The notes beneath the pieces are model-generated. The model searched no databases and was not told the DNA's origin. It saw only the letters and a list, made by a program, of their open reading frames with translations. A stretch of 64,000 nt of DNA from Apium graveolens. Taxonomy: Eukaryota; Streptophyta; Magnoliopsida; Apiales; Apiaceae. Positions 14,661 through 63,383 of this stretch are shown here, piece by piece; positions within the stretch are counted from its first letter, which is position 1; every line of letters begins with the position of its first letter. Where the stretch lies: the NCBI RefSeq assembly GCF_009905375.1, contig NC_133650.1, forward strand, positions 175,097,565 to 175,161,564. Reading direction: 5' to 3'. The position numbers were made by a program, and so were the translations under genes.

Positions 14661-14665
14661 GAGTC

Positions 14666-23609: not shown

Positions 23610-24664
23610 TGTTAGAAATATGTGTATTAGTTTGATGATAAGTTAAGCAAAACACTTAAGTAGAAATCTAGTGTTTGTAGCCTCAACGGATAAGACCATC
23701 TTGGCTATCCGTTGAAGGAGTAGCCTTACTTAGCAATAAGTTTGGTATTGTAGCACATTTCACTTTCTGGTTTTAAGCTGTAATTCTTAGATGTTGTTAG
23801 GAAATAATCAGTCATGTTGACTACTAATGGATGTACAAATAGGAGGGCTAATTGTAAATATTTCATGCCTTGTAATTTTGTATAAGTGAAGAAGTGTCAA
23901 CGGATATTGAAGACCTTCAACGGATAAGAAACAAAGCTTCAACGGATGTCTCTAATGCTTCAACGGATAAATATCCATCAACGGATAAGTGCTATAATGG
24001 ATAAAGCTTCAACTGCTAGAGCATCAACGGATAAAGCCATCAACGGATGAAAGCTTCAACGGATGCTCAGTCTCATAGCAGTTGATAGTGACAGTTAACA
24101 AAGCTGACAGAGGCACATGGATTGACAGAGATGTGGTAGCCTATTTCAGGAACAGCAGAAAAAGCAGCCGTTTTTAGTCTGGTTCAAAATGGAAAGTCAA
24201 CAGATAATTCCATATTACACTGGATAAGAATGGAATAGAAACAAGTGGAGAACTATTTTCTTATTGTACTTTATCTTTGTCTTTACTTATAAACTTGGTG
24301 ATATATAAACCAAGTAGTAGCTAGTAATTAGATGTGAATTTTCCCTGAGCTGTTTAGAAATATCAAGAGAGAAAATCATCTAGTTTGTACTAGGAAGCAG
24401 CTGTGATTTAATTTTGAATCACAGATTTTCTGAAATAACACATCTCTGGTGGAACAACAAATCCACCAGAAAAGTTTTTAAGTTCTTTGTGTTCATTACA
24501 TTTGTGTTTGAATATATATCTGTCTGCATCAGCTCCAAGCAATTCACACACATTTGATCACTCAAACACTTAGCCTTACAAACTGCTCAAAACTTGAAAA
24601 AGTTTTGAGATTTACATTCAACCCCCCTTCTGTAAATCTCATTGTTAGTCAACTGGGAATAACA
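23610..24664 (+). repeat. 5' LTR of copia B
   Basis: TGTTAGAAAT to GGGAATAACA. U3 carries about ten CAACGGAT or ATCCGTTG motifs (23683-23715 and 23896-24066). They lie upstream of a TATA box at about 24300-24308 (ATATATAAA), in enhancer position. No significant ORF. Confidence 0.92.
23683..24066. repeat. CAACGGAT motif array in U3 of the 5' LTR
   Basis: Direct copies of TCAACGGATA/G at about 23683, 23897, 23917, 23938, 23958, 23978, 24023, 24039 and 24056, plus an inverted TATCCGTTGA at 23706-23715. One unit near 23993 is mutated to ATAATGGATA; the 3' LTR has TTCAACGGATA there. Confidence 0.9.
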
Positions 24665-24684
24665 ATTGGTATCAGAGCAAGCTC
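24665..24684 (+). other. primer binding site of copia B
   Basis: TGGTATCAGAGC complements the 3' end of initiator tRNA-Met and lies directly after the LTR, as in Sireviruses. Confidence 0.9.
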
Positions 24685-24724
24685 TTAACATATAAAGAGT
24701 TTAAAGATCTATTCTGCTAACATC

Positions 24725-25837
24725 ATGAGTGCACAGAAGAACTCTCCTGTTACCATCATGAATAGGAAGGATATTGGTGTAAAGATTCCAGTGCTGGAAA
24801 AGGATAATTATTATCACTGGAAAGTGAAGATGCATTTACATCTTCTTTCTCAAGATGAAAGCTACATCAACTGTATTGAAAATGGTACTCACATCCCTCA
24901 CAAGGTAGCCACAGCTGCTACTGCAACAGTTGCTGTTGGACAGTCTATTCCCAAGCCAAGAGCAGAATGGACTATTGAAGACATGGAAGAAATCCGCAAG
25001 GATAAGAGAGCCATGAACATTTTATTTAATGGCTTAGATCAAGATATGTTTGACAATATCATCAATTGCCAAACTGCAAAGGAAGTTTGGGACACTGTAC
25101 AAATCATCTGTGAAGGTACTGAGCAGGTCAGAGAGAACAAAATGCAGCTTCTTATTCAACAGTATGAATATTTTCACTTTGAAGAAGGTGAATCATTAAA
25201 TGATACCTTCAACAGGTTTCAGAAACTGTTGAATGGATTGAAGCTGTATGGTAGAGTGTACCAAGTCAAGGATTCCAACTTAAAATTTCTTAGGTCTCTG
25301 CCAAAGGAATGGAAGCCCATGACTGTCTCTTTGAGAAACTCTCAAGATTATAAGAACTTCACACTTGAAAGATTATATGGAATTTTGAAGACTTATGAAC
25401 TTGAAATGGAGCAGGATGAGCTGTTGAAAAAGGGAAAGAGAAAAGGAGGAACAGTTGCTCTTGTAGCTGACTGTGAGAAGATGGAAGCCAGGAATGAGGA
25501 GAAGATAATGCCAAGTCTCAAAGTTGGCACAAGCAAATCAGAATCAAGCAAGGGTAAAGAGCAAGTTGCTGAGGATGAAGACAATTCCAGTCAGGATGAA
25601 TCTGATGATATTGAAGAACATTTGGCCTTTCTGTCCAGGAGGTTTGCAAAGATGAAGTTCAGAAAAAACACAAAGTTCACTAAGCCAAACAAAAACATGG
25701 TGGACAAATCAAAGTTCAAATGTTACAACTGTGGCATTAGTGGACACTTTGCAAATGAGTGTAGGAAGCCAAATTCTGAGAAAAAGAAATTTGAGCAAGT
25801 TGATTACAAAAAGAAGTATTTTGATTTGCTCAAATAA
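24725..25837 (+). pseudogene. gag: Ty1-copia gag (element B), N-terminal capsid and zinc knuckle
   Basis: Starts at ATG 24725, 60 bp after the LTR. Residues about 15-250 form the copia capsid region (KDNYYHWKVKMHLHL, then FNGLDQDMFDNI and WDTVQIICEGTEQVR). An acidic linker and one CCHC zinc knuckle CYNCGISGHFANEC (about residues 333-346) follow for RNA binding. The TAA at 25835-25837 falls inside a conserved stretch and the same frame continues to 26365, so it is a secondary nonsense mutation. Extended gag C-terminal regions are usual in Sireviruses. Confidence 0.88.
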
Positions 25838-27162
25838 AAGGAAAGAGCATTTCTCACTCAAGATGATTGGGCAGCAGATAGGGCAAACGAAGATGATGAT
25901 GTGGAATATGTCAACCTAGCCCTGATGGCTAATTCTGATGAAAATGAAACTAGTTCATCAAGCAACCAGGTAATTACTACTGATCTCTCTCAGCTCTCTA
26001 AACATGAATGCAATGAAGCCATAAATGATATGACCAATGAATTATATCATTTGCGTGTTTCCCTTAAATCTCTAGCAAAAGAAAACACTAGGATCAAGGA
26101 GAATAATGTGTTTTTAAGTGATAGGAATGATGTGTTAGAGGATCAGGTAATTGAGCTTGAAAAGATAAAACTTAAATGCCTGACTGTTGAGAGTGAACTA
26201 GCAGAAGCTGTTAAGAAAGTGGAAATTCTTTCTAAACAGTTAGAAAGTGAGCAAGAGGTAATCAAGGCCTGGAAAACATCTAGGGATGTTAGTGTTCAGA
26301 TTGCAAAGGTCCAGGGAATTGAATCATTCTGTGAGGATGCCTGGAAGAAAAAAAAAAGAAGTTAAAATTAATTGATGGATTGTCAACGGATGTGGAATCA
26401 ACGGATGATGAAAGTTATCCGTTGAAGGAAGAAAAGGAGCATCCGTTGAAGGCTCATCAATTAAAACAGGCAAGTTCTTTTAAAAATAAAAATCTAAATA
26501 AAAAGAATGATTCAACTCTCAAGAACTTTGTCAAAGAAGGAGCTAGCACATCCAGAGATGTTAGTAAGGTGAATATAGGGCATATGACTTTAGATCAGCT
26601 AAAAGATCGACTTAAGTTGGTTGAGGATAAGAAGGAAACTAAAAGAAAATCTAAAAGAAATGGGAAGGTAGGGATTAATAAACACAACAATTACACACCT
26701 GATAGGTATGCTCCTAGAAAAAGCTGTGTGCATTGTAAAAGTGTTAATCACATATCTGATAATTGCAAATCTGTTAAAAATGCTCCCATGCCTTCAAATC
26801 CCTCCATACCTAACATGTCTATGTCATCTCTGCATGCTATGCCTGTTATGTCTCACCAGAATCCCCATGCACATTTTGCAAACATGCCATACATTAACAA
26901 TCCTTATTTTACTGCATTTAGTATGCCTCAAATGCCATAAAGTATGCCTATATGGAATAACATGCTTGCACAACATATGCCTTATCAAATTCAATCAAAT
27001 GTGTTAAATGATTCTGTAACTAACCCTACACTTCAACCAACCACATCTGAGACCAAGGTTGACCCAAAGTTACCTGAGTCAAAAGATGCAGGAGGAATGA
27101 AGTCTAGGAAAAAGACTAACAAGGGTGGACCCAAGGAAACTTGGGTACCAAAATCAACTTAA
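25838..27162 (+). pseudogene. gag: Ty1-copia gag C-terminal extension (element B)
   Basis: This continues the gag frame: 25838-26365 is a coiled-coil-like region (ELYHLRVSLKSLAKENTRIK and similar). A run of ten A at 26348-26357 coincides with a frameshift, and 26380-27162 follows in a second frame with a TAA at 26938-26940. The later part holds a second zinc-binding-like site (CVHCKSVNHISDNC) and a Met/Pro/Asn-rich tail. CAACGGAT motifs in coding sequence lie at 26383-26449. The homopolymer shift looks like decay, not programmed frameshifting. Confidence 0.8.
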
Positions 27163-27175
27163 TTGATTTTGTTGT

Positions 27176-27843
27176 GTGCAGGGACAAAGAAGGAATCTAT
27201 GGTACTTGGACAGTGGTTGTTCAAGACACATGACAGGAGATTTCACCCTGCTCACAGAGTTTAAGGAGAGAGCTGGCCCTAGCATAACCTTTGGAGATGA
27301 CAGCAAAGGATTCACTATGGGATATGGCTTGATTTCAAGAGAAAATGTCATCATTGATGAAGTTGCATTGGTTGATGATCTCAAACACAATTTATTGAGA
27401 ATCAGTCAACTATGTGACAGAGGGAATACTGTTTCCTTCAATTCTGAAGCCTGTATTGTCACAAGTAAAAAGGACAATAAAGTGGTTCTAACTGGAGTTA
27501 GAAAAGGGAATGTGTACTTAGCTGATTTCAACTCTACAGATGCAGAATCCATTACTTGTCTTCTCAGCAAAGCAAGTCCAGTTGAAAGTTGGCTATGGCA
27601 CAAGAAGCTGTCTCATTTGAATTTCAAGACAATGAATGATCTAGTCAAAAAGGACTTAGTTAGAGGAATGCCTCTAGTGGAATTCACAAGGGATGGACTG
27701 TGTGATGCTTGTCAGAAAGGAAAGCAAAAGAAAGTATCATTCAGTAAGAAGCTTGAATCTGCAATTGATGAACCACTGCAACTTCTACACATGGATCTTT
27801 TTGGACCAGTCAATGTATTGTCAATTTCAAGGAAAAGATATTG
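27176..27843 (+). pseudogene. pol: Ty1-copia pol, protease and integrase start (element B)
   Basis: Protease begins at WYLDSGCSRHMTG (catalytic Asp in DSG). The GAG-pre-integrase zinc domain (WHKKLSHLNF, then CDACQKGKQ) and the first integrase Asp (LLHMDLFGP) follow. The frame differs from the end of gag. The coding sequence stops at 27838 where C inserted; 27839-27843 (TATTG) is the target copy. It resumes in frame at 40742. Confidence 0.9.
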
Positions 27844-30800
27844 TGTAACGACCGAGGAATTATGCTTGTACTTGGTTACAATCGATTTATGTTATTTATT
27901 TGAACAAACGATTGTTCTAAGTGTTAGTTCTTAGTTTCAAGGTTATACAATTTTATTTTAGTTCGTTTTTGATTTTGTATGAATCTGAGATTGTTTTGAT
28001 TATAGGGGTTTGATTGTAGAACTAATAAGCTTTATTTTGATATATTATTTGTAATTTTTCGTGTAAGAATATGTGAGTTTAGTATTTGGCCGGAAAATTG
28101 TTTGATTTGGCCGGAGAAATTGTTCCCGAAGTTATTAGGCGATGTTGTTGGCATGGGTGTGTTTCTCGAGTGATTTTGAATAAAAACCTGCAAAGAATCG
28201 ATTCAAATGGTTTGTGGTTGTGCCAAATCGAAGCCGTCGGAGTTCGTGACGGAGCTCGCCGGCCCATACTCTGTTCTCGGTCGGAGAAGACAACCTGTGC
28301 AACGGAGACGAAAGAGGACAACGGGGTTGTGTTGCTGTAGTCACGTGGAGTCGAACGGGACAAGAACCTTGCAGAAACGATGGCCTGGAAGCTGGGAATT
28401 GCTCGTCGGAAAACTCGTCGGAACCGATCACCATTGCCGGATTCTGGGCAGCCTGGCCGTGTTCTTGAAGACCCGGGTTCGACCCGGTTTCCAACCCGGT
28501 TTCGACCCGGGGTTTGATCCAATAAAACCAAAAATCAATTCTAGAATTATGTTTCTGGAATTTTAATTATTTATTTATATTTTATCAAAGTAAAAATTAG
28601 TTTTAGTAATTCTAAAAAGTAAATAAAAATTACATTTAAATTCTGAAAAGTATTATTAATAATTTCTGAATTATTTTATTAATTTAGAAATTTGAAATTA
28701 GTTATCTATTTAATTATTTATTAGTTATCTAATTAGTTAATAATTAGGTAATTAATTAATAATTAGGTAAATAATTAATAAATAAGGAATAAAAATAATC
28801 GAATAATATGAATAATAATTCGTTAATTAGTTAAATATTCCGAGTAACTCGTACCTATTCGAGTCGTGATTCGTTAAGTTAGAATTATTAATCGAGCGAT
28901 ATTTATTCGAAGAATATCGTACTAATTATTCGTATCGAATAATTAAATATCGATAATTAATTAACGAATTGTATAAGTTATAATAATAATAATAATAACA
29001 GTTCGATAGTTATTCGAGAATCGCGAGTAGCTCGTATTTATACGAGTAGTTGCTCGTTGAATTATGATTCGAATAATATTTATTTATTCGATAAGTATCG
29101 TATCAGTTATTTGTATCGATTAGTTATTTGTAAATAATCGATCTAATCGAGTAAGTGATAATAATGTGTAAATAATTGTAATAAATAGTAATTAATCCTA
29201 ATAATTAGGGATTAATTATTTTAAAATACAATAATTATTAGTTAATTATTTAAAATGTAATTAAGGATTATTTAATTATAATTAATTATTAATTAAATCT
29301 TGTTTAATTCATAATAATTCAACCGTTAATCCGATTTGAGCGAAACGAAGACCCCTAGACTCAGAAAAATGAAACGAATCCAATAAAAATAATTGTGAGT
29401 TATAATTTCCTCCAAAAGAGAATGGTTTGGTGATAATTAATAGTTCATAGGCCCTAATAGGGGTATAATTTAATCGAATAATCCCGAAAAATTATAATAA
29501 AGTCAGATAAGGCTAGTTAATGCAGGTATGAGTCTAGAATCAATTCTAAAAATAATTATAAGTCTAAAAATTGATTATGTGCTTTATGTGCTATGTGCTT
29601 TATGTGCTATGTGCTTTATGTGATTATGTGAACCTATGTGCCATATCAATATATGTGTATATATGCGAATCAGATAGAAACGCATGGGTAGACTGATAAG
29701 GTTACGTGATATCAATTCCAGATACACGTATATAGTAAGTTATCTAAACAACTATCTTTCCATGATTGGTTCAGTGTTAGCAAGGCAGAGTAAGCTAGGG
29801 ACAGAAGGCGGTGAGTTGAATCAGGTTAAGTACGCGCGAGGCAAGTTTTTCCCCTATTCTAAATTCAGAATAGTGAATTATATTCCATTTTACATATCAT
29901 TTACACTTTGATAATTCTTGTTCATATGCACTGATACATATCTATTGATTCTTGTTTCTATTTCATTTCGATTCTTGATTTCTCCCAATTTATTGAATCC
30001 TCTATTCATATTCCAATATTTTTACCCTTGTTACATATATTATGATATATCCTGATGTTGGGATACATCAAAAGCATTCCGATTGTTCCGGATGCTAAAC
30101 TTCGGACTGGATGGTTACGATACAGGCTGGGTTTTACTCAGACCTTTAATTAATAGGCCATAGCTGCCTGAGTACTCCTTATGTTGGTTGGATCTATACA
30201 GTTGGGTATAGATTCGCACTGTATCCTGACTGATCAGCGGGTTATAGTGCATATGTTGGTTCTTGTTTCCAGTCTTGTTCATTTGGCACTCGCCAGTATT
30301 GGCAAATTATTAGTCTATACAGACTCAGATGGTTGATCAAACCAGCAGCTTATTGGTTCACTTATTTCTCTCTCTTTATACTATCTATATTGTTGCAGGC
30401 TTGTTGAGCAATTTTGGCTCATCCTCTTTTATTGTTGTTCCTATTGTCTTACAGTTAAGGTAGAGAATGAAACCCATCAGAACCCGCGTAGTCAAGAAGC
30501 GAGTGAAGCAGCGGGACCCTCTTATACCAAGGGTGTTCATCCCTATCCCTGAAGAGAGCTTTGAGTTATCAGATCAGGTGTAACAGGATAAGTACTATTA
30601 TGGTTTAAATAAAAGTTGTGTGGTGAGCATGTAGATAGAATAAAGTTTTGTAATAAAGAGAGTTCTTGAGACGGATTGTTTTTATTTGGTCTGTAATAAA
30701 GTTAGTATATGGTTCTTGTTTTCAGATCTTAACCTTAAAAGATCCTGATAGCAGTAGTTCGGGGTAATTATTCTAATTATATTCCGCTTGTGCAAGACTA

Positions 30801-30859
30801 ATGTGTAGTTAATATTAGTAATGCCCCAAATCTATACCCCGGATTTGGAGGGTGTTACA
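27844..30859 (+). repeat. 5' LTR of chromovirus C, promoter deleted
   Basis: 3016 bp against 3873 bp for the 3' LTR. The first 27 bp match the 3' LTR, then sequence jumps to the counterpart of 37768. The missing 872 bp include the TATA box and a likely splice donor; the break lies in TGTA microhomology. A 15-bp ATGTGCTTTATGTGCT-type repeat near 29580-29625 has one more unit than in the 3' LTR. GC-rich frames at 28079-28566 and the frame at 29684-29911 recur in both LTRs and are probably not genes. Confidence 0.92.
30467..30583 (+). CDS. small ORF near the LTR end, chromovirus C (38 aa)
   Basis: Starts MKPIRTRVVKKRVKQRDP, basic at the N-terminus and acidic at the end (PEEESFELSDQV-like). The copy in the 3' LTR (40349-40465) differs by one base, a synonymous change in a Val codon. 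It lies 276 bp before the LTR end, after a splice-acceptor-like TTGTTGCAG (30391-30399). In the predicted spliced leader it would be the first ATG. Translation is a hypothesis. Confidence 0.4.
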   Translation: MKPIRTRVVKKRVKQRDPLIPRVFIPIPEESFELSDQV

Positions 30860-30880
30860 GTTGGCATCAGAGCTTAGGTT
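30860..30880 (+). other. primer binding site of chromovirus C
   Basis: TTGGCATCAGAGCTTAGG directly after the LTR. It fits initiator tRNA-Met except for one C where TGGTATC is usual. Confidence 0.85.
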
Positions 30881-31037
30881 TGACCTTTGAAAACAAGAAC
30901 GTTAGGGCTAAGATAAGATAGGAAAATGAGATAGGATGAGAGTAAGAATGTTAGGATTGTTTGTCTATGTGATTAGAAGTTATGAGTTTAGGATTGTGAT
31001 TTGATTGTTTTTGTGTTATTATTTTTATGTATATTAG

Positions 31038-31829
31038 ATGGCTTCTTTATCATCATCTACGAAGAGGACCGAGACAGATCCAGGGGATGCACCGGTAGTA
31101 GCCCCAGTGTCAGAGCAGATCTTACCTCCATTGCCACCTGAGCCAGCACCAGAGATACCACTTCCCCCAGAGGTACCAGGTTTTGTAGATTATTTTCCAT
31201 ATTTTGAGCCAGAGATACCAGATTTTCCACCACTAGAGTTCCCGAGGTTCGATATTCCTGACATGATTGATCTTCCGCAGTGGGAGGATTTAGAGCCTCA
31301 GATTCCTATGCCACCAGTCGAGATTCTAGAGCTGCCACATATGGAGCTAGAGGCAGAGCCGCCAGTGTATGCGCCGATGGAGCAGCCTGTCTTATTTCCT
31401 GCCCCATTAGCCATTTATGCACCTGTTCCAGGAGTTTATCAGTTTCCTCAGCCAGAGTTTATGGATGATATTGTGGTGGATGGACCATTACCTTCTCGAG
31501 GTTCCAGCACTGATCTTCGGGAGCATCATACCGTGACTTACCAGCGCTTTCAGGCAGAGAGGGAGGAGAGGATTAGATGGCAGAACCAGTGTAGGGAGAT
31601 CCTTGGGTTGTATGAGACACAGACGGATGGTCCTGTCAGAGTATTACGACCGGATTATATACTGAGAGAGAGGCTACATCATATTCACCGGGTTAGTTCG
31701 CAGCAGCTTACTGAGTTGAGACAGCAGGATCTTAGTGCGGAGACAGCATATCGCAGAGCATTGGGACTTACCGAGGTAGTGCTAGAGGCATTGCAGGAGG
31801 AGTTGAGCCACGTACCACCAGGATTTTGA
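31038..31829 (+). CDS. accessory proline- and acid-rich ORF upstream of gag (element C)
   Basis: Intact 263-residue ORF between PBS and gag with a good start context (TAGATGGC). Residues 1-150 are very rich in Pro, Glu and hydrophobics (PPLPPEPAPEIPLPPEVPG), like an extended disordered arm. Residues 165-263 are predicted helical, with many Arg, Glu and Gln (REERIRWQNQCREILGLYE). No known enzyme motif. Intactness next to a gag-pol with a stop suggests recent selection or youth. Element E has an acidic relic in the same place (54000-54360), so this may be a lineage trait. Function unknown. Confidence 0.7.
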   Translation: MASLSSSTKRTETDPGDAPVVAPVSEQILPPLPPEPAPEIPLPPEVPGFVDYFPYFEPEIPDFPPLEFPRFDIPDMIDLPQWEDLEPQIPMPPVEILELPHMELEAEPPVYAPMEQPVLFPAPLAIYAPVPGVYQFPQPEFMDDIVVDGPLPSRGSSTDLREHHTVTYQRFQAEREERIRWQNQCREILGLYETQTDGPVRVLRPDYILRERLHHIHRVSSQQLTELRQQDLSAETAYRRALGLTEVVLEALQEELSHVPPGF

Positions 31830-32271
31830 GACCAGCAGATCAATGAGTGTGGTATTATGTATATTTTGTAGATAGAGGCAGCATAGTATTGTATGACTAG
31901 TTTGTATGAGTGTAGTTACTGACTTTGACCGATAGTAGTAGTAGCAGTATGATTGTTATATCATAGGTTTTTGTATCAAGCACTGACACCTGTAGCTGGT
32001 GTTCTACATATATATATACGAGATGATCTTTTGCACGTTTCTTTATTTTATTTCCAGTTATTTAAGCATTTATATTTATTTCAGTACCATTGCATATTTA
32101 TAAATGTAGTTTTATTTACGATCATGTTGTATCCTTATGTAAAAAAAAAAACATCATACTGTTTTATCTATTCAGTTATTTAATAAGTTGTTTTATTTTC
32201 TCAAATCGACTGTTTTAATATATGTTTAATATACTGTTATTAAAGAAGACCATTGTTTATTTACCAGAAAG
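31830..32271 (+). other. noncoding interval between accessory ORF and gag (element C)
   Basis: AT-rich, with a short TA run near 32010 and several TTTATT tracts. I see no gene or clear signal beyond the gag start at 32272. Confidence 0.5.
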
Positions 32272-34881
32272 ATGACACCTAAAAGAAAAACACTACCCGA
32301 TTCATCGAATGGGAACACCGAGGGCCAAAACAATAATAAACAGATGGATCAGATGTTTAATCTCATGCAACAACAAATGTTGATGATGCAACAACAAATG
32401 CAGCAGCAACATCAGCAGTTCCAGCAACAGATGTTACAGCAAGCCGCTCATCCAGGACATCAAGTACCACCAACAGCGCCTACGACCACTTTCAAGCAAT
32501 TTCAGTCGGTGAAGCCACCAGAATTTATGGGTTCCACGGATCCTACAAAAGCGAGAGCTTGGCTGAAAGAGATGGAAAAGGCTTTTTCGTTGGTAAAGGT
32601 TGAGGAAGAGCAGAAGACGGATTTTTCTAGCTATTTCCTGAAAGGCGAAGCTAATTACTGGTGGGAATCGAAGAAAGCTTTGGAAGAAGAAGGTGTGGTG
32701 ACCTGGGATAGATTCACTGATCTTTTCTTGGAGAAATATTTTCCTCGTTTTATGAAAACCCAGATGGAGATCAAGTTCCTGGAGCTGAAACAAGACAACT
32801 TATTGGTTGCGGATTATGAGACCAAGTTTACTGAATTGGCAAGGTTTGTTCCAGAGCAGGTGGATACGGACGAGAAACGGGCCAAGAGATTTCAGCAAGG
32901 ACTAAAACCATGGATTCGTAGCAGGGTAGCTGTGTTTGAATTGACAACTTATACGGCTGTTGTTCAGAAGGCTATGATTATTGAAGGAGAAAGCGAAGCA
33001 GCTCAAAAAGAGAAAGGACCAGGGAATTTTCAGAATCGTTTTAACAAAAGGCCGGGATTTCAAGCTCGAGGAAAAGTAAACTTTAGGAGGCCAGAACAAA
33101 ACAACCAGAGGATGGGTAATCGACTACCTGCCCCAACTCAGCAAAGGCTTATTCGACCGCATGTACCTGATTGCAGAACGTGTGGTAGAAAGCATACGGG
33201 AATTTGCAACAAGCCAAATGTCACGTGTTTCAAGTGCAAGCAAAGGGGACACTATTCTGGAGAATGTCCGATGGGAAAAGCAGAAGTTACTTGTTTTCAA
33301 TATGGGAGAAAAGGACATATCGTCAGAGACTGCAGAGGAATTGCAATGGCCGCTAGTATTCCAAGAGTGTTAGCATTACCTCCACCTCCACTACCACAGC
33401 AACATCAGCCCAGAGCAAGGACTTTCAACATGTCAATGAAGGAAGCGGTACAGAGTCCGAATGTGGTTGCAGGTACACTTCCTGTAAATTCTGTGAATGA
33501 TTTGGTATTGATTGATTCAGGAGCTACTAGATCTTTTATTTCTGAAGCTTTTATCTCTAAAATAAATTGTGAGGTACAGTGGTTAGATGAAGTGTTAATC
33601 ATAAAATTAGCGAATAATGATCAGGTTGCAGTAGATCGAGTATGCCCGAGTTGTGATATTGAGATAAGAAGATGTCATTTTTCAGTTGATTTGATACCTT
33701 TTAGGTTAGGGGAGTTTGATGTTATTCTAGGAATGGATTGGCTATCTAGTAATAATGCTCAAATTGACTGTGCAAATAAGAGAGTGAAATTGCAAACTGA
33801 AGAAAATGAAACGGTAATATTTAAAGGTGAGAAGCAAAAGCAGAAATTCCTATCAATAATGCAGATGAGAAGATTGCTACGCCTAGGATGTCAAGCTTAT
33901 TTAGCCTATGTACGTGATGCTAATAAGGGAAATCCAAAGATTGAAGATATTCCATTAGTTTGTGAATTTCTTGATGTTTTTCCAGATGAATTACCAGGAC
34001 TTCCACCAGATCGAGAAATCGAGTTCACTATTGATTTGACGCCAGGGACCGAACCAATTTTGAAAGCTCCATATCGAATGGCACCTGTTGAAATGAGGGA
34101 ATTATCAAAGCAGTTGCAAGGACTTCTCGACAAAGGAATTATAAGGCCAAGTGTATCCCCATGGGGCGCGCCAGTATTGTTCGTGAAAAAGAAGGATGGC
34201 AGTATGCGACTGTGTATTGATTATCGTGAGCTGAACAAGTTAACTATCAAGAATAAATATCCTTTACCTCGCATCGATGATTTATTTGATCAATTAAAAG
34301 GAGCAGCATGGTTTTCGAAAATCGACTTACGATCAGGCTATCATCAGTTAAAGATCAAGGCCGAAGATATTCCAAAGACAGCATTTAGAACGAGGTACGG
34401 ACACTATGAATTTCTTGTGATGGCTTTTGGATTAACGAATGCACCTGCAGCGTTTATGGATTTGATGAATCGAATATTCAAGAAGTATTTGGATAAATTT
34501 ATCATTGTATTTATTGATGACATTTTGATCTACTCAAAGATGGGAGAAGAGCATGCAGCGCATTTAAGAACGACATTGGAGATATTACGAAAGGAGCAGC
34601 TTTATGCAAAATTTTCAAAATGTGAATTTTGGTTGAAAGAAGTGCAGTTTCTAGGGCATATCATCAGCAGAGAAGGCATTCAAGTTGATCCAGTAAAGAT
34701 TGAAGCTGTGTTGAATTGGGAAAGACCAAAGACGCCGACAGAGGTTCGAAGTTTCTTAGGTTTGGCAGGATATTATCGAAGATTTGTCAAAGATTTTGCG
34801 AAGATAGCAACACCGTTGACCAAATTAACTCGACAAAGTGAAAAGTTCGAATGGAATAGTGAATGTGAAGAAAGTTTTTAA
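32272..34881 (+). pseudogene. gag-pol: chromovirus gag, protease and reverse transcriptase (element C)
   Basis: 869 residues in one frame. A Gln/Met-rich N-terminus precedes the gag capsid domain (about 85-240, [13 protein letters not shown]). A zinc region (about 300-355) follows with [12 protein letters not shown], an intact [14 protein letters not shown], and a second knuckle whose second Cys reads Tyr ([14 protein letters not shown]). Next come protease ([11 protein letters not shown], catalytic Asp near 412) and RT with [23 protein letters not shown] and catalytic FIDD near 746. The TAA at 34879-34881 lies in a conserved RT-RNase H segment and the same frame goes on at 34882, so it is a single nonsense change. 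Confidence 0.92.
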
Positions 34882-34884
34882 GAG

Positions 34885-36828
34885 TTGAAGAATCGGTTGG
34901 TGACTGCACCAGTATTAGTACTGCCAGACGAGCAAGGAAATTTTGTTATTTATAGTGACGCTTCATATCGTGGTTTAGGATGTGTGTTGATGCAACATGG
35001 TAACGTCATTGCATATGCGTCGAGACAACTGAAACCTCATGAGCAGAAATATCCTACGCACGATCTGGAATTGGCAGCAATTGTATTTGCATTGAAGCTT
35101 TGGAGACATTATCTGTATGGTGAAAAATGCGAAATCTACACGGATCATAAAAGTCTGAAGTATATCTTCACGCAAAAGGAACTGAACATGCGACAACGTC
35201 GATGGCTGGAATTGATTAAAGATTATGATGTTATAATCAGTTATCATCCAGGAAAAGCAAATGTTGTAGTAGATGCACTAAGCAGAAAAGAAAGATTGAA
35301 TCGGTTAACTTCATGTGAAGAATTGGTTAAAGAATTCGACAAATTGGAAATTGAGATTCGTATTCCTCATGAATCTGCAGGAACTATTTACGCTATGACT
35401 TTTCAACCAGGGTTTCTAGAAAAGATTCGCCATTGTCAAGATAAAGTGATGAGTCAAGACGACAACTTAACAGGAGAAGAGATTACAACTCAGAAAGATA
35501 ATGAAGGAATTTTACGTTTTACGTCAAGAATCTGGATCCCTAACGTGGTAGAATTAAAAGAAGAAATTATGCGAGATGCGCACAATTCGAAGTATTCCAT
35601 TCATCCAGGAAGCACGAAAATGTATCGTGATTTGAATGAAAACTTTTGGTGGCCGAATATGAAGAAGGAGATAGCAGAATGGGTGAGTAAATGCTACACA
35701 TGCCAACGAGTTAAAGCAGAGCATCAACGTCCGAGTGGGTTATTGCAACCATTAGACACTCCAGAATGGAAATGGGAACATCTAGCGATGGATTTTGTAG
35801 TGGGACTTCCAAGGACGAAAGCCAATCACGATGCAATTTGGGTTATTATTGATCGATTGACGAAATCAGCACATTTTCTTCCAATTAATGAGAGATTTTC
35901 ATTGGACAAGCTAGTGCATTTATATCTTAAAGAAATTGTGATGCGTCATGGAGTACCAGTATCAATTGTATCGGATCGAGATCCTCGTTTCAATTCAAGA
36001 TTTTGGAGACAATTCCAAGAATGTCTAGGAACGAAGTTGAATATGAGTACAGCCTATCATCCGCAAACTGACGGTCAAAGTGAAAGGACAATTCAAACGA
36101 TTGAAGACATGTTACGAGTTTGTGCGATCGATTTTGAAGGTAGTTGGGATGAACATTTACCCCTAGTGGAATTTTCTTATAATAACAGCTATCACGCCAG
36201 TATTGGAATGCCACCGTATGAAGCATTATATGGAAGGAAATGCAGATCACCAGTGCATTGGGATGAAGTTGGAGAACGCAAGATTTTGGGTCCAGAATTA
36301 ATTCAGCAGACAAAAGAAAAGATTAAACTCATTCGAAAACGAATTGAGACAGCACAAAATAGGCAAAGCAGATATGCAGACCAAGCAAGGAAGGATGTGG
36401 ACTATCAGGAAAGAGAACGCGTATTGCTCAAAATATCGCCATGGAAAGGATTGGCCAGATTTGGCAATAAAGGGAAATTGAATCCACGATACGTTGGACC
36501 ATTTGAGATTTTGAAGAAAATTGGGAAGGTTGCATACGAGTTAGCTCTACCACCCCATATGCAGCACATTCACAACGTATTTCATGTATCTATGCTTAAA
36601 AAGTATAATCCTGATACAAGGCATGTAATAGAATATGAACCAGTAGAACTTCAGACAGATTTGTCATATGTAGAGCAGCCAATAAGAATTCTAGATAGGC
36701 AAGAGAGGATATTAAGAAATAAGTCTGTGTCATTAGTGAGAGTTTTATGGAGAAACCTAGTGGTTGAAGAATCAACCTGGGAGCTTGAGAGTGAAATGTT
36801 AGAAAGGTATCCTCAGTTATTTGTATAA
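34885..36828 (+). pseudogene. pol: chromovirus RNase H, integrase and chromodomain (element C)
   Basis: 647 residues in the same frame as the preceding gag-RT piece. RNase H carries [27 protein letters not shown] and [10 protein letters not shown]. The integrase zinc domain follows ([11 protein letters not shown] and [11 protein letters not shown]), then the core triad: Asp in MDFVVGLP, Asp in SDRDPRF and Glu in [12 protein letters not shown]. The GPF/Y-type C-terminal region ([12 protein letters not shown]) leads to a chromodomain (about 590-647, ending [15 protein letters not shown]). Every catalytic residue I can check is present. It ends 40 bp before the 3' LTR. Confidence 0.93.
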
Positions 36829-36854
36829 TGTGATTCTGAGGACAGAATCTTGTT

Positions 36855-36868
36855 AAAGGGGGGGAGAA
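36855..36868 (+). other. polypurine tract of chromovirus C
   Basis: AAAGGGGGGGAGAA immediately before the 3' LTR start TGTAACG. Confidence 0.9.
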
Positions 36869-37456
36869 TGTAACGACCGAGGAATTATGCTTGTATTATA
36901 TTATAATAATGATAAATTATGTGTATTATTATGTGGTTAAATGTGTTAAGTCGTTAAACCCTAACTGCTATGTGATATGTGTTGGCTGTTTTGATCCAAA
37001 CGTGTTTTGGATATTTATTGAGCATTTTATCATCAGTTATATATATATCAAAACCTGTACAGCTCAAAACTATGTTTTGAAAGCCCGTATTTCAAACAAA
37101 ATCATTGGCCCTATTTTGCCAAAAATGCCCTATCCCATATCGATATTCTGAACCCCTAAATGTTTTACAAATTTACCTTTTTCGCGAAAAACGACTTTTT
37201 CGGACCCCTTCGGGTACCAAAAGCCCCACAAAAATCACATTTTTATTTTTATATGATCATGAAATTATCATACATTATTTTTCTTTGCATTTTTGTAATA
37301 TTCACAATTTTTGGGAATTTTTGACATTTATTTTGTATTTATTGGATATTTAAAAATTCATTATTAATACCCAAAAATTGTAAAAATTGGGGCCAAATAT
37401 TTTTATTAGAGGTATAATTAGACCCTTAATTTTATTTAGGGGTATTATTTTCATTA

Positions 37457-40280
37457 GTATAAATACCTGTTTTATTATTAATTATTCATTAATTAATTGT
37501 TAAAAATCAGAAAATAAAAAAATTAGAAAGTGGGGGTGAAGAACAACCAGGGAATTAAACTGCAGATTTGAGAGTGATTCTGTTACCCGTTTTGATCATG
37601 TGAGTAACCAAAACAAAGCTCTTGATCTCTACTTTCTGTTCATACCATCAATTTCATGTTTTGATGCTTAGATTTTCAATTCATATTTTAGGGTTCATGA
37701 ACTGAAATTGGGGGTTTTTGATTCTGGGGTTCTGGGTTGATTTTGATGCTTGGTATAGTTTCCTGTACTTGGTTACAATCGATTTATGTTATTTATTTGA
37801 ACAAACGATTGTTCTAAGTGTTAGTTCTTAGTTTCAAGGTTATACAATTTTATTTTAGTTCGTTTTTGATTTTGTATGAATCTGAGATTGTTTTGATTAT
37901 AGGGGTTTGATTGTAGAACTAATAAGCTTTATTTTGATATATTATTTGTAATTTTTCGTGTAAGAATCTGTGAGTTTAGTATTTGGCCGGAAAATTGTTT
38001 GATTTGGCCGGAGAAATTGTTCCCGGAGTTATTAGGCGATGTTGTTGGCATGGGTGTGTTTCTCGAGTGATTTTGAATAAAAACCTGCAAAGAATCGATT
38101 CAAATGGTTTGTGGTTGTGCCAAATCGAAGCCGCCGGAGTTCGTGACGGAATTCGCCGGCCCATGCTCTGTTCTTGGTCGGAGAAGACAACCTGTGCAAC
38201 GGAGACGAAAGAGGACAACGGGGTTGTGTTGCTGTAGTCACGTGGAGTCGAACGGGACAAGAACCTTGCAGAAAAGATGGCCTGGAAGCTGGGAATTGCT
38301 CGTCGGAAAATTCGTCGGAACCGGTCACCATTGCCGGATTCTGGGCAGCCTGGCCGTGTTCTTGAAGACCCGGGTTCGACCCAGTTTCCAACCTGGTTTC
38401 GACCCGGGGTTTGATCCAATAAAACCAAAAATCAATTCTAGAATTATGTTTCTGGAATTTTAATTATTTATTTATATTTTATCAAAGTAAAAATTAGTTT
38501 TAGTAATTCTAAAAAGTAAATAAAAATTACATTTAAATTCTGAAAAGTATTATTAATAATTTCTGAATTATTTTATTAATTTAGAAATTTGAAATTAGTT
38601 ATCTATTTAATTAGTTATTAGTTATCTAATTAGTTAATAATTAGGTAATTAATTAATAATTAGGTAAATAATTAATAAATAAGGATTAAAAATAATGGAA
38701 TAATATGAATAATAATTCGTTAATTAGTTAAATATTCCGAGTAACTCGTACCTATTCGAGTCGTGATTCGTTAAGTTAGAATTATTAATCGAGCGATATT
38801 TATTCGAAGAATATCATACTAATTATTCGTATCGAATAATTAAATATCCATAATTAATTAACGAATTGTATAAGTTATAATAATAATAATAACAGTTCGA
38901 TAGTTATTCGAGAATCGTGAGTAGCTCGTATTTATACGAGTAGTTGCTCGTTGAATTATGATTCGAATAATATTTATTTATTCGATAAGTATCGTATCAG
39001 TTATTTGTATCGATTAGTTATTTGTAAATAATCGATCTAATCGAGTAAGTGATAATAATTTGTAAATAATTGTAATAAATAGTAATTAATCCTAATAATT
39101 AGGGATTAATTATTTTAAAATACAATAATTATTAGTTAATTATTTAAAATGTAATTAAGGATTATTTAATTATAATTAATTATTAATTAATTAAATCTTG
39201 TTTAATTCATAATAATTCAACCGTTAATCCGATTTGAGCGAAACGAAGACCCCTAAACTCAGAAAAATGAAACGAATCCAATAAAAATAATTGTGAGTTA
39301 TAATTTCCTCCAAAAGAGAATGGTTTGGTGATAATTAATAGTTCGTAGGCCCTAATAGGGGTATAATTTAATCGAATAATCCCGAAAAATTATAATAAAG
39401 TCAAATAAGGCTAGTTAATGCAGGTATGAGTCTAGAATCAATTCTAAAAATAATTATAAGTCTAAAAATTGATTATGTGCTTTATGTGCTATGTGCTTTA
39501 TGTGATTATGTGAACCTATGTGCTATATCAATATATGTGTATATATGCGAATCAGATAGAAACGCATGGGTAGACTGATAAGGTTACGTGATATCAATTC
39601 CAGATACACGTATATAGTAAGTTATCTAAACAACTATCTTTCCATGATTGGTTCAGTGTTAGCAAGGCAGAGTAAGCTAGGGACAGAAGGCGGTGAGTTG
39701 AATCAGGTTAAGTACGCGCGAGCCAAGTTTTTCCCCTATTCTAAATTCAGAATAGTGAATTATATTCCATTTTGCATATCAATTACACTTTGATAATTCT
39801 TGTTCATATGCACTGATACATATCTATTGATTCTTGTTTCTATTTCATTTCGATTCTTGATTTCTCCCAATTTATTGAATCCTCTATTCATATTCTAATA
39901 TTTTTACCCTTGTTACATATATTATGATATATCCTGATGTTGGGATACATCAAAAGCATTCCGATTGTTCCGGATGCTAAACTTCGGACTGGATGGTTAC
40001 GATACAGGCTGGGTTTTACTCAGATCTTTAATTAATAGGCCATAGCTGCCTGAGTACTCCTTATGTTGGTTGGATCTATACAGTTGGGTATAGATTCGCA
40101 CTGTATCCTGACTGATCAGCGGGTTATAGTGCATATATTGGTTCTTGTTTCCAGTCTTGTTCATTTGGCACTCGCCAGTATTGGCAAATTATTAGTCTAT
40201 ACAGACTCAGATGGTTGATCAAACCAGCAGCTTATTGGTTCACTTATTTCTCTCTCTTTATACTATCTATATTGTTGCAG
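37457..40280 (+). promoter_or_regulatory. putative LTR promoter and leader intron (chromovirus C 3' LTR)
   Basis: The TATA box at 37457 predicts a transcript start near 37490. A strong donor-like GTGAGTAAC starts at 37600. A strong acceptor (pyrimidine-rich tract, then TATTGTTGCAG with AG at 40279-40280) precedes GCTTGTTGAGC. Splicing would remove about 2.7 kb of leader and leave the ATG at 40349 as the first start codon. Inferred from sequence only. Confidence 0.4.
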
Positions 40281-40348
40281 GCTTGTTGAGCAATTTTGGC
40301 TCATCCTCTTTTATTATTATTCCTATTGTCTTACAGTTAAGGTAGAGA

Positions 40349-40465
40349 ATGAAACCCATCAGAACCCGCGTAGTCAAGAAGCGAGTCAAGCAGCGGGACC
40401 CTCTTATACCAAGGGTGTTCATCCCTATCCCTGAAGAGAGCTTTGAGTTATCAGATCAGGTGTAA
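40349..40465 (+). CDS. small ORF near the LTR end, 3' LTR copy (38 aa)
   Basis: Same protein as at 30467-30583, with a single synonymous difference. It is preceded by TTACAGTTAAGGTAGAGA. See the 5' LTR copy for reasoning. Confidence 0.4.
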   Translation: MKPIRTRVVKKRVKQRDPLIPRVFIPIPEESFELSDQV

Positions 40466-40741
40466 CAGGATAAGTACTATTATGGTTTAAATAAAAGTTG
40501 TGTGGTGAGCATGTAGATAGAATAAAGTTTTGTAATAAAGAGAGTTCTTGAGACGGATTGTTTTTATTTGGTCTGTAATAAAGTTAGTATGTGGTTCTTG
40601 TTTTCAGATCTTAACCTTAAAAGATCCTGATAGCAGTAGTTCAGGGTAATTATTCTAATTATATTCCGCTTGTGCAAGACTAATGTGTAGTTAATATTAG
40701 TAATGCCCCAAATCTATACCCCGGATTTGGAGGGTGTTACA

Positions 40742-46862: not shown

Positions 46863-46894
<32 letters not shown>

Positions 46895-48983: not shown

Positions 48984-49001
48984 GTCTCCCCTCCTTAAAA
49001 G
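48984..49001 (-). other. polypurine tract of chromovirus E
   Basis: Minus strand CTTTTAAGGAGGGGAGAC directly before the LTR start TGTAATAACCCC. Confidence 0.88.
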
Positions 49002-54378: not shown

Positions 54379-54394
54379 TAGCTCTGATACCATT
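54379..54394 (-). other. primer binding site of chromovirus E
   Basis: Minus strand TGGTATCAGAGCTAA, two bases after the LTR end; complementary to initiator tRNA-Met. Confidence 0.9.
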
Positions 54395-54396
54395 TC

Positions 54397-56393: not shown

Positions 56394-56425
<32 letters not shown>

Positions 56426-58514: not shown

Positions 58515-61500
58515 TCTAAAGTTTCCAAAGTCAAGTCAAAGAAACCTACCTCTGTTGTTTCTCAAAAGACAACAGTTGTAACAACTACCATAAACCCTGA
58601 AGGGAGTGAACAGGGTGTGAGTGGTGAGGGGAGGGGTGAACATCAAAAAGCCCCCCAGGATAAGGTGGGAGAGGTGAGTGGTACCCAAACCAGCCAAGCC
58701 ACAGTCTCTCAAAAGACTGTGGTGGTTCAAAAGGAGTCCAGCACATCCCTAGTTGCATCCTCCCAAAAGGATGTAACTATTGAAAATAGTCCCCAACCAG
58801 GGACACAGAACAAAAGAGGGAGGGACACTGAAGCTACACATTCACCAATTAAAGCCTTTTAAAGGAAGAAGAAGGCCAAAACCCTAGTTTCCACACAAGG
58901 GACACACACAGCACAGATACATCCACCAGTATCTGTGCCTTCTCAAATTTAGCTTGATGTGATTCCAGCAAATGTGGAATCACAGCCCCATTCTCTTAAT
59001 ATAGAAACACACCATTCATCAAGCTCTCCAATACCCTCTCTGGATGTGGACATGATATTCACATCAATTCATGATTCTCCCTCATTGAAACTCAGGGAGG
59101 AGCCCCACTCAAAACCTGATGATCATCATTTTTTTGATGATTTGTTGGATTATCAGCCAATTCTTTCAGATGTAGTTGAAGATTCTGTGTTACCTCACTT
59201 AAAATCAATCCACACAGATTCAACAATTATGTCACTTTCTATCTCTACATCATTTCCCTCTTCAACGGATATCTCTCATCCGTTGACAAGTGGTTGTTCT
59301 TCAACGGATAAGCTTAACAGTAATTATCCGTTGACACCATCAGTTTCTACTTCAACGGATACTCCCTATCCGTTGATGGCCTCTACACACTTAACAGAAA
59401 CAATTCCAACTGTAGAGGACATGGCAACTGTACAATCACTTTTAGGTTTGAGAGAAGGGAGTGATTTTTTGAGTGAGAGGCTGGATTGCTCCCAGGCAAA
59501 AGGAGAGGTTGAGAGTCACCAAATGCATGCTATTTCTTCCAGCATGGCAAAAGTAAGTGAGAGGAGTGCCACCTTAGAAGGTGAAGGTGAGGGTGTGAGG
59601 GTGTGTGTGAGCCAGGGGGAGCCCCTGATGCAAGAACAGAGAGAAATTGAGAGAAAGGCAGGTACAGAAGCTATAAGGGTGGATCCAGCCATTGCTAGTG
59701 AGTTAATGAAAGTGGATGATGCAGATAAGGAAAGACAATTTCAGCAACATTACAAAGCTATCATTGATAACATTTCCTTGGATGCTGACACTTTTACTCA
59801 CCCTGTTTCAGCCTTTCAATTTTTGGCTGCTCAGGGCAATGTGGAGGCAGAACAGACACTACACATTGTACACACTTCAGAATCTCTTCTCAGAGAAAAA
59901 GTTGCTGTCAACAGGCTGCCTTCTCAAGCTGGTGAGCCATCTGAAGAATTTGGAGTAAATTCTAATGATGATGACTCTAATTCTTTGAATGAAAGCATGA
60001 ACTTAGGGGGAGTAGAAGGCCCAAGTTCTGCTCCTGCTCTTCCTGAATGGGCACTGGCCAAATCACCAACACCAGGAGAATTTGGTGTCACTTTGGTCAG
60101 ACAAGTCATGACAATTTAGAAGGCCTTTCAGGAGACTCAAGATGCTGGTACCAAGGAAATTCTTCAAGCTCATCTGGAATCTCTGCATCTCTTGCAGTTG
60201 CAGCATTACTAGCAAAATCTAAGTATGGATGAGCTCAAGCAGGATATTGCTGATCTGAAATCCTACAATGCTGAGAAATTGGATTCAGTTATACCCTATG
60301 GTACTATGCAATATTTGTTGGGGAGACTGAGGAAAGCATCTGATGCTGACAAGAGGCTGGCCAGATTGGAAGATAGGGTTCAAATCATTGAAGACTCTAT
60401 GGTCACCATTCTTCAGAATCAACAAACTCAAACAAATCTACTCATGCAGCTGGCAAAAGCACAAGGCTTGACCACTACCCTTGATGATAACAAAAAGGGG
60501 GAGAATAAAGGGGAAGGGGAAGGAGAGCCATCTACAACAGTTCAGATTTCTCAAGTGCTAGTTCCTGTCATCACAACTTCTCCACCAATTCAAGTCAAAG
60601 GAAAGCTAGATGGAATTGATCTAATCTAGATAGCAGTAGCTGAATTGCAAGTCAAAGAGCAAAGGAAGAAGATTGATGAAAAGATGCAACTAATATTTGG
60701 TTCTACAACTTCTCAATCACAATCTGTGAAGCATAGCACAAAAGTGGAATCAATTATTATGGAACTCAAGCCAGTAGGGAGGCATAAGGATGGAGAAACT
60801 TCTTCCAAAGATCTGCAACCTATGGTTCTCAAGCCCAACAATAGCTTCAACAAGGACTCTACAAAGAACCCTCTAAGCCTTGCTCAAATGAAAGGAGTGG
60901 ATTTTCCTCTTCCAAAGCCTGATGAAGACAAGCTTATGGGTAGAAATATCATAAAGCTCAAAGAGAACATAGATGAGGCTGTAAGGAGGAACATGGCTGT
61001 TATCTTTAGAGAGGGAAAGAGCATCTATGTGATGCAAGGACATCCCAAATTCTCAATAGCCAAGAGGGAAGAAACCAAGAGGTTGAAGGAAGAAGCCAAA
61101 CAGCTAAAGGCTAACAAAAGAGCACTAGCAAAGCTTGAAAAATAGCTAAAGTTAAGTCAGGCTGAAGAATAGAAAGAAATTGAAGACAAAGGTGAAGATA
61201 GAGCTATGGGGGACATGGTTGGTACTGAGATGGAGGAAAGAAGTAAGGAAGAATGGCAGAAAGGGAATAGAAAGAAAGTCAATGCAAAGAGAAAGATGGT
61301 AGATGAGACTGAAGAAAACCAATCAATATCCAAACCACTACCCTCTATTCCTGAACCCATTGTGCCTGACCCCGTCATAAACATTCATGGTGAACCAATC
61401 ACTCCTAAGGAGGAACCAATTGATTGGGACACCATCAAATTGCCCACCTTCCTAACCTCTTTTACACCATCAAAGAAGCAGAAAAGAAGAATCAAATAAA

Positions 61501-62138
61501 CACCCTCTAAAGCCTCAATCAAATTCACACAGAAGCCTAAGCCTAAACCTCAAACCTCTAAAGATGATTATGTTCACATCTGTGACATAAAAGAATTTTC
61601 AGACATTGAACTCTATCTGGATGAGTTGGAGGATGTAAGGGGAATAGCTGCCTACAGACAGCTACCAGAAAGACTAGTGTTCAAATACAAAGGAGCTGGG
61701 GAAAGAACATGGCCTCTTCACAGAATTCTGAATGAAGGCTACTCTACCTTGATTAGAGTCTACTCAGCCATACAAAAGGATTCTGGCTTTACCAGGACTG
61801 CCAGGACTGAGATTCTCAACAAGATTGCCAACATAAGGAAAACTTGGAGGGAGCCCAATGCCTTGCCTAGAACTTTACTCATTCAAGAGAGAGGTATTAC
61901 AATTCACAAACCACCTCATTGGTTGATGGAGTTCAGAGACAACAAAGGAGTCAGAAGATTTTTCAGAATTGATGATCAGCTAAAGATTGCCAGTAATGAA
62001 ACTCTCAAGGATATGCAGTCTAAGTTAGATATCAATGAAGAAGATGAAGCTAAATTCTACAGACAACTTCAACTTCAAATAGAGGAGAATGACAGGAGGC
62101 TAGGAAAGAAAACTAGGGATCAAAGGAAAAGAAAGTAA
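58515..62138 (+). pseudogene. Sirevirus-type third ORF, central and C-terminal part (element B)
   Basis: 1208 codons in a single frame that is exactly in phase with 43954-44859. Eight in-frame stops start at 58860, 58950, 60117, 60210, 60627, 61143, 61170 and 61497, with no frameshift. Regions: Ser/Thr/Lys linker; acidic disordered segment with CAACGGAT motifs (59262-59377); a coiled-coil-like helix (about 60230-60470, RLARLEDRVQIIEDSMV); Lys/Glu-rich helices; and a conserved basic C-terminal domain (61620-62138, RGIAAYRQLPERLVFKY, ending RDQRKRK). No env, protease or nuclease motif is seen. The basic ends suggest nucleic-acid binding or nuclear location, which is inference. Confidence 0.8.
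59262..59377 (+). repeat. CAACGGAT/ATCCGTTG inverted pairs inside the third ORF (element B)
   Basis: Motifs at about 59262, 59278, 59301, 59325, 59352 and 59368 alternate in orientation. They form pairs such as CAACGGATATCTCTCATCCG (19-20 nt). They read STD and HPL/YPL in the protein, a different phase from the pol array. Confidence 0.88.
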
Positions 62139-62326
62139 TTTGCTCAGGCTAAAGGAGCACCCTTGGAAACAATGTATTTCTTCAATTTCATCTCAGCATA
62201 TACACTTTTGTAGCACTTTTGAATTTCTGCTTTGTTACAATTTATATATTTGTTAAGTGTTTTGTTATCATCAAGCTAAACCCAAATTTATGCCTACAGT
62301 TCTAGTAGACATAAATAGGGGGAGAT
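62139..62326 (+). other. 3' untranslated region and polypurine tract of copia B
   Basis: Noncoding after the third ORF. The PPT AGGGGGAGAT (62318-62326 region) precedes the 3' LTR start TGTTAGG. Confidence 0.85.
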
Positions 62327-63383
62327 TGTTAGGAATATGTGTATTAGTTTGATGATAAGTTAAGCAAAACACTTAAGTAGAAATCTAGTGTTTGTAGCCT
62401 CAACGGATAAGACCATCTTGGCTATCCGTTGAAGGAGTAGCCTTACTTAGCAATAAGTTTGGTATTGTAGCACATTTCACTTTCTGGTTTCAAGCTGTAA
62501 TTCTTAGATGTTGTTAGGAAATAATCAGTCATGTTGACTACTAATGGATGTACAAATAGGAGGGCTAATTGTAAATATTTCATGCCTTGTAATTTTGTAT
62601 AAGTGAAGAAGTGTCAATGGATATTGAAGACCTTCAACGGATAAGAAACAAAGCTTCAACGGATGTCTCTAATACTTCAACGGATAAATATCCATCAACG
62701 GATAAGTGCTTCAACGGATAAAGCTTTAACTGCTAGAGCATCAACGGATAAAGCCATCAACGGATGAAAGCTTCAACGGATGCTCAGTCTCATAGCAGTT
62801 GATAGTGACAGTTAACAAAGCTGACAGAGGCACATGGATTGACAGAGATGTGGTAGCCTATTTCAGGAACAGCAGAAAAAGCAGCCGTTTTTAGTCTGGT
62901 TCAAAATGGAAAGTCAACAGATAATTCCATATTACACTGGATAAAAATGGAATAGAAACAAGTGGAGAACTATTTTCTTATTGTACTTTATCTTTGTCTT
63001 CACTTGTAAACTTGGTGATATATAAACCAAGTAGTAGCTAGTAATTAGATGTGAATTTTCCCTGAGCTGTTTAGAAATATCAAGAGAGAAAATCATCTAG
63101 TTTGTACTAGGAAGCAGCTGTGATTTAATTTTGAATCACAGATTTTCTGAAATAACACATCTCTGGTGGAACAACAAATCCACCAGAAAAGTTTTTAAGT
63201 TCTTTGTGTTCATTACATTTGTGTTTGAATATATATATTTGTCTGCATCAGCTCCAAGCAATTCACACACATTTGATCACTCAAACACTTAGCCTTACAA
63301 ACTGCTCAAAACTTGAAAAAGTTTTGAGATTTACATTCAACCCCCCTTCTGTAAATCTCATTGTTAGTCCACTGGGAATAACA
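62327..63383 (+). repeat. 3' LTR of copia B
   Basis: 1057 bp, TGTTAGGAAT to GGGAATAACA, with the same CAACGGAT arrays (62400-62432, 62630-62785). The U3 motif that is mutated in the 5' LTR is intact here. The TATA box is at about 63017-63026. Confidence 0.92.

Follow-up and report, generated by a model that had tools for sequence, protein, structure and literature searches.

A short motif clustered in coding and non-coding parts of a Sirevirus-type copia element of Apium graveolens, and its counterpart in a sister family

Structure of element A and distribution of the motif

We analysed a 64,000-nt stretch of the Apium graveolens genome (the window; all coordinates are positions in it) containing a Ty1/copia retrotransposon, element A (23610-63383, plus strand), in which the 8-mer CAACGGAT is repeated in clusters. 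The 5' long terminal repeat (LTR, 23610..24664) has TG...CA ends and is preceded by the target-site duplication TATTC (23605-23609); it is 98.5% identical to the 3' LTR (62327..63383). Between them lie gag (24725..26940; three open reading frames (ORFs) in this copy, with PF14223 and a zinc knuckle in the first), pol (27176..43423; gag-pre-integrase, integrase (IN) and the reverse transcriptase (RT) domain RVT_2), interrupted by a nested element (27867-40741), and the third ORF of the element, ORF3, which is envelope-like (env-like). The N domain of ORF3 (43954..44864) is separated from the rest of the frame (58518..62138) by a second nested element (44865-58517); ORF3 is broken in element A, and in L010, a different copy, it runs open for 1535 codons. 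The element nested in ORF3 has 4.1-kb LTRs that are 99.8% identical and holds no ORF of at least 150 amino acids starting from ATG, GTG or TTG; it is a recent, apparently non-autonomous insertion.

The junction of the 5' LTR with the primer-binding site (24663..24678, CA-ATTGG-TATCAGAGC) matches the Sirevirus consensus (PMC2829016) exactly, as does the polypurine tract and attachment site (62317..62328, AGGGGGAG-AT-TG). Further AGGGGGAG octamers, multiple copies being a Sirevirus trait, are found in pol (41695) and ORF3 (59614, 60005 and 60496). The domain order is that of copia elements, with gag first, IN before RT and the env-like ORF after pol, and the motif layout follows the Sirevirus pattern of repeats in the LTRs (10 each) and in the linker upstream of the env-like ORF (6). 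CAACGGAT is not a palindromic CGG-CCG unit of the Sirevirus kind. Element A is a Sirevirus-type Ty1/copia element.

The window contains 42 exact copies of CAACGGAT on both strands, against a mean of 1.07 and a maximum of 4 in 100 dinucleotide shuffles, and 41 of them lie in element A, grouped in six clusters. Ten copies (9 sense, 1 antisense) form an array in the U3 region of the 5' LTR (23684..24064), with a TATAAA downstream at 24288, and another ten (also 9 and 1) an array in the 3' LTR (62401-62781). Four are found in gag (26384..26448, orientation ++--, encoding STD, STD, YPL and HPL), five in the IN-RT spacer (41512..41635, ----+, mostly in 24-bp steps, encoding SVE or SVD), six in the pol-ORF3 linker (43509..43660, with one-mismatch copies at 43566, 43683 and 43703) and six in ORF3 (59263..59375, +-+-+-, encoding STD/HPL/STD/YPL/STD/HPL in L010). 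No copy is present in either nested element of element A (26.5 kb together) or in its remaining gag, protease, IN, RT and ORF3 stretches. The 42nd copy (799-806, minus strand) belongs to element B, a further copia element that is related to element A and lies on the minus strand. A reading of this DNA from its letters alone (the sequence-only reading) had described a motif spread over LTR, gag, pol, spacer and third ORF of one copia element, which these counts bear out; the cluster positions that it gave were right to one base, being one base too low. It had also described the copies as often forming inverted pairs, and this applies to the internal sites (10 sense, 11 antisense) but not to the LTR arrays, which are almost entirely direct. 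Built round a CGG core, the unit itself is not a palindrome; the inverted pairs are formed by some of the neighbouring copies. Clusters share an identity of only about 10 bases and differ in flanking sequence; part of the LTR and IN-RT arrays is tandem, in units of 16 and 24 bp.

Abundance in family A and in the genome

All six places are filled with motifs in three further copies of the family (L012/L013, L014/L015 and L016/L017), although the RT rows of the first two are identical and these may be duplicates. L010/L011 has motifs in five of the six places and a short linker without a cluster, and L018 in all four of the places that its 10 kb covers. Compared with first-order Markov expectations, we counted 39 copies of CAACGGAT in L010 and L011 (0.1 expected), 42 in L012 and L013 (0.07 expected; one is probably in a neighbouring LTR) and 26 in L018 (0.05 expected), CAACGGAT being the most enriched 8-mer in each. 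Across the 3.33-Gb genome, spaced pairs of CAACGGAT number 86,577 + 86,302 (about 173,000), against 40 + 31 for the same word written backwards. Motif density is far above that expected from composition in other copies too, and clusters are found family-wide, the two points on which the sequence-only reading had proposed to be judged.

Conservation extends beyond the 8-mer: in family A, position -1 is T in 223 of 226 sites and position +1 a purine in all 226, and with family B (the family of element B) included, +1 is a purine in 331/331 sites, giving YCRACGGATR as the extended consensus of both families with flanks. When CAACGGAT and its one-mismatch neighbours are counted in the sequences fetched for family A, CAACTGAT, the word that carrot peptides would imply (below), ranks third with 20 copies, possibly as remnants of an older motif.

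Selection on the nucleic acid

Codon use was assessed at 14 coding sites, in ORF3 of L010 and in gag and pol of L018. Two reading phases of the motif occur there, giving STD, HPL/YPL or SVE/SVD. Within the motif, 5/5 threonines are encoded by ACG and 5/5 prolines by CCG, against 1/185 and 1/135 respectively outside the motif in the same frames; combined, these codons are used at 10/10 motif positions and 2/320 others, for which the joint probability, given the peptides and taking sites as independent, is about 10^-38. In these copies (L010 and L018) the reading phases are those first proposed: gag and ORF3 give STD and HPL/YPL, and pol gives (A/V/S)SV(E/D). Where the word differs, the amino acids change along with it. 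Codon use at the motif and amino acids that track its changes together lend strong support to selection on the nucleic acid and not on the peptide, as the sequence-only reading had argued.

A concerted switch in a sister family

Element B lies on the minus strand, with its 3' part at 88..5315 and an integrase and pre-integrase part at 14661..15398, beyond a nested LTR element. Its pol is about 82-85% identical in DNA to that of element A. In place of CAACGGAT, of which it has the single copy at 799, it carries CGACGGAT in ORF3 (733, 775 and 823), the linker (2717, 2797 and 2820) and the IN-RT spacer (4829, 4853 and 4901); further copies of family B (L022/L023 and L027/L028) have it in the LTRs and gag as well. 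Genome-wide, CGACGGAT pairs number 49,277 + 48,966, against 2 + 8 in the control.

We aligned A and B rows for single clusters, picking rows where the cluster was known. Fifteen aligned sites are filled in both families in identical orientation (3 in gag, 5 in the IN-RT spacer, 5 in ORF3 and 2 in the linker), some copies being without a given site; two cells in B rows are A-type and none in A rows is B-type. The pooled fetched sets hold 227 CAACGGAT and 7 CGACGGAT for family A, 6 of these 7 appearing to be located in the LTR of a neighbouring element, and 105 CGACGGAT and 3 CAACGGAT for family B, whose flanks have a pyrimidine at -1 in 101/105 sites and a purine at +1 in 105/105. Because the 15 sites are occupied in both families in the same orientation, the alignments indicate that the motif changed in concert at homologous sites. 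The change was probably from A to G, making a CpG, at many sites, because family B nests within A-type copies on an RT tree of 35 rows (support 0.885 for B, 0.961 for L038 with B, and 0.785 for the outgroup with one A group). Such concerted switching suggests that the motif is read in trans by a factor that coevolves with it.

Words of other families and species

To the locus L030 we added 20 of about 100 listed RT places, chosen for diversity of RT signature and not at random, and typed these 21 loci: 4 were A-type, 2 B-type, 4 enriched in a CTGAT core (a level reached by 0/200 shuffles), 4 enriched in TCGA words (p of 0.03 or less, as also at the B-type locus L039), 3 borderline for CTGAT and 4 without any of these. 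Family E, which is more distant from A than B is, has AAGTTCTGAT-type words. In two 10-kb pieces of this family, AAGTTCTG occurs 16 and 12 times where about 0.9 would be expected. Related copies, TTCTGATA or CTGATA, are found in the gag region, the IN-RT spacer, the linker and ORF3, and exact TTCTGATA is in sense orientation in 11/13 cases in L051 and in 7/11 in L052. The genome contains 30,302 + 29,746 AAGTTCTGAT pairs, against 3 + 1 in the control. In family C (L031, L032, L042 and L053) the linker carries a palindromic word, GACTTCTCGA. More broadly among related Sirevirus-like loci (these four and L043), linker palindromes are GACTTCTCGA or GACTTATCGA, again one base apart between relatives.

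We also compared 36 RT places with the coordinates of typed pairs in a range of -1.3 to +4.5 kb. Pairs of a single kind were present at 16 places (E at 11, A at 3 and B at 2), the other 20 had none (two of these have B pairs about 3.15 kb upstream), and at no place did two kinds occur.

Other species were compared at the protein level, through the peptides that the motif encodes at these positions of gag and ORF3. Where family A has STD/HPL/YPL, other proteins from Apium (P0033, P0034, P0036 and P0003) have YPS/HPS. Carrot gag (P0053 and P0083) and carrot ORF3 (P0017) have STD/HQL, peptides that would imply the word CAACTGAT, while carrot P0067 has HPL/YPL and P0066, P0069 and P0093 are mixed or degenerate. 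The Heracleum gags P0043, P0045 and P0047 have STD/HPL and the remaining Heracleum gags do not; Heracleum ORF3 is without the motif-coded peptides. Carrot-type STD/HQL also appears in a gag labelled Rhizophagus irregularis (P0049); this fungus is cultured with carrot roots, and the sequence is probably host DNA from such a culture in a fungal assembly.

The nested LTR element in element B (5431-14660), gypsy-like by eye, has a palindromic CGG-CCG word of its own, CTGAGCGGCCGCCCAGC, in arrays at 6441-6500, 9397-9475 and 14341-14419, that is, in both LTRs and directly 5' of a Transposase_32 ORF (minus strand; 7958-8617 at 54 bits, above the cut-off of 45, and 8701-9387 at 41 bits, below it). The arrangement is that of Sirevirus motifs, here in an apparent member of a different superfamily.

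ORF3 as a candidate reader

The predicted AF2 model of the ORF3 N domain has as its best-ranked PDB match 9lnj, VANC21 bound to its target DNA; the match is weak. Neither DUF1985 nor DUF287 is among the Pfam families listed for ORF3. The domain of the window copy matches no Pfam family, and the best of 20 alignment members reaches E 0.013 against Transposase_32 (PF20167), below the gathering score; the domain is a distant relative of Transposase_32 proteins. Of 120 listed relatives, 6 carry PF20167, five of them named Tanacetum, although one of the six (P0151) scores 25 bits on rescanning against a Pfam cut-off of 45. Another relative, P0127, is a fragment on a 1-kb contig labelled Klebsiella pneumoniae, 60% identical to the N domain, and is probably plant contamination of a bacterial assembly. 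From the predicted fold we regard the env-like protein as a candidate reader of the motif. The earlier suggestion that the motif is a binding site for an element-coded factor gains indirect support from the weak VANC21 fold match and from the concerted switch in the sister family.

Discussion

For a motif with the clusters, the genome-wide abundance, the nucleic-acid-level selection and the concerted change at homologous sites described above, we give roughly even odds (about 0.5) to its being a recognition site, kept in many copies for a sequence-specific DNA-binding protein that acts in trans and that we infer to be the ORF3 protein. Putative sites would be kept in the promoter region of the LTR, in the linker that precedes ORF3 and in short segments within gag, pol and ORF3; the ORF3 protein would bind all along its own element through its N domain; and binding would relieve silencing or activate transcription of its own family, as VANC does for VANDAL elements. 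A shift in ORF3 specificity, followed by all sites, would then make sister families mutually independent.

The alternative that fares best, though we hold it unlikely, is that the arrays are sites of a host transcription factor, MYB-type cores (CAACGG) recruited as enhancers with no element-coded reader. MYB proteins bind the core YAACNG, and AACGG is the core of the mitosis-specific activator (MSA) site read by MYB3R proteins. The likeness to MYB/MSA sites noted in the sequence-only reading holds for CAACGG and for the CAACTG inferred in carrot, and the U3 array lies upstream of a TATAAA; it fails for the CGACGG of the sister family and the GTTCTG of family E, so the AACNG core is not kept across related families. 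In family B, CGACGG replaces CAACGG at the 15 aligned sites (105 against 3 in the fetched set), which abolishes the AAC core, the family E word GTTCTGAT has no MYB core, and sites within gag, pol and ORF3 are atypical of a promoter enhancer. Sirevirus motifs do have PLACE matches to sites of stress factors (PMC2829016).

A little less probable is a signal in RNA, in which inverted copies pair in genomic RNA (for dimerisation, packaging or circularisation) or feed small-RNA pathways, the pairing making copies change together. The gag, linker and ORF3 clusters fold strongly (z-scores of -7.2, -6.9 and -7.7) and the IN-RT cluster less so (-3.0), and the cluster alignments suggest that A-to-B changes at inverted pairs keep the pairing. 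However, inverted pairs fold trivially, so these low energies are not independent evidence; the LTR array is direct, with no sign of folding (z 0.17), the IN-RT cluster consists of four direct copies plus one, and TTCTGATA in family E is biased to one orientation. An RNA role does not explain the direct arrays.

We consider it improbable that the motif is a target of sequence-specific host silencing that persists by hitch-hiking. The A and B motifs do contain a CpG, and VANC targets overlap those of RNA-directed DNA methylation (PMC10398659), but the family E motif has no CpG, and a site recognised by the host should be lost under selection, not kept some 40 times and rebuilt in a new form. 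Spread of the word without function, by slippage, gene conversion or template switching, is less probable again: it would account for the partly tandem LTR and IN-RT arrays, but not for clusters that share only about 10 bases within differing flanks, for orientation conserved at aligned sites, for the invariant purine at +1 or for the absence of sites from the conserved domains of element A. Selection for a repeated peptide in Gag, Pol and ORF3 can practically be set aside, since, although the coding clusters stay in open frames in the copies examined, the word gives different peptides in different phases, recurs in the non-coding LTR and linker, and uses rare codons at 10/10 of the STD/HPL-type sites tested.

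As for a DNA recognition site with its own reader, part of the layout is already known: repeated motifs of Sireviruses, palindromes in the LTR and linker and in two elements also at the start of ENV, were described by Bousios et al. 2010 (PMC2829016). Element A shares with them a high copy number, a CGG core, an LTR array, linker copies before the env-like ORF and a word of the family's own. It differs from that account in that its word is non-palindromic and is also clustered inside gag, in the IN-RT spacer and in mid-ORF3, and in the concerted substitution that separates sister families at these sites. The other parallel is offered by VANC anti-silencing proteins and the VANDAL motifs (PMC5735166, PMC10398659): as in VANDAL elements, a short family-specific motif is repeated over the element, related families have different words and arrays change together, and ORF3 resembles VANC as a fast-evolving element-coded protein with a weak fold match to VANC21. 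VANDALs, however, are DNA transposons and the VANC21 motif is non-coding, whereas element A, an LTR retrotransposon, has sites inside coding sequence too, and the likeness of ORF3 to the VANC anti-silencing proteins lies in its predicted fold, with no DUF1985/DUF287 match seen. Some listed relatives of its N domain carry Transposase_32, which the window copy itself does not match.

Env-like ORFs of plant elements are likewise sense ORFs between pol and the 3' LTR; their function has been called controversial, with env-like, plasmodesmatal or chaperone roles proposed (PMC7264820), and other additional ORFs have been modelled (PMC11728184). For ORF3 we propose instead that it binds DNA and reads the motif of its own element. 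Among titles and the openings of abstracts, we found no report of a motif spread through gag, pol and ORF3, of concerted switching or of a VANC-like reader. More tentatively, and with somewhat less confidence than in the recognition site itself, the Sirevirus "envelope" ORF might be a VANC-type DNA-binding anti-silencing factor, part of a self-recognition system that retrotransposons evolved themselves or have in common with DNA transposons, in which a private word, read by the element's protein, would stand in promoter and coding sequence and new families would arise by a joint switch of word and reader.

The one-base motif switch at homologous sites in paired families provides a clean specificity-swap test, and the constraint on the nucleic acid is so strong that it sets amino acids in three genes. 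The findings suggest that the word is a family's own label on its DNA, meant for a matching DNA-binding protein that the family may itself encode. If ORF3 does read the motif, anti-silencing through a private address word would not be peculiar to VANDAL elements but would also be used by abundant plant retrotransposons, and would help to account for the diversification of families and their escape from silencing at limited cost to the host.

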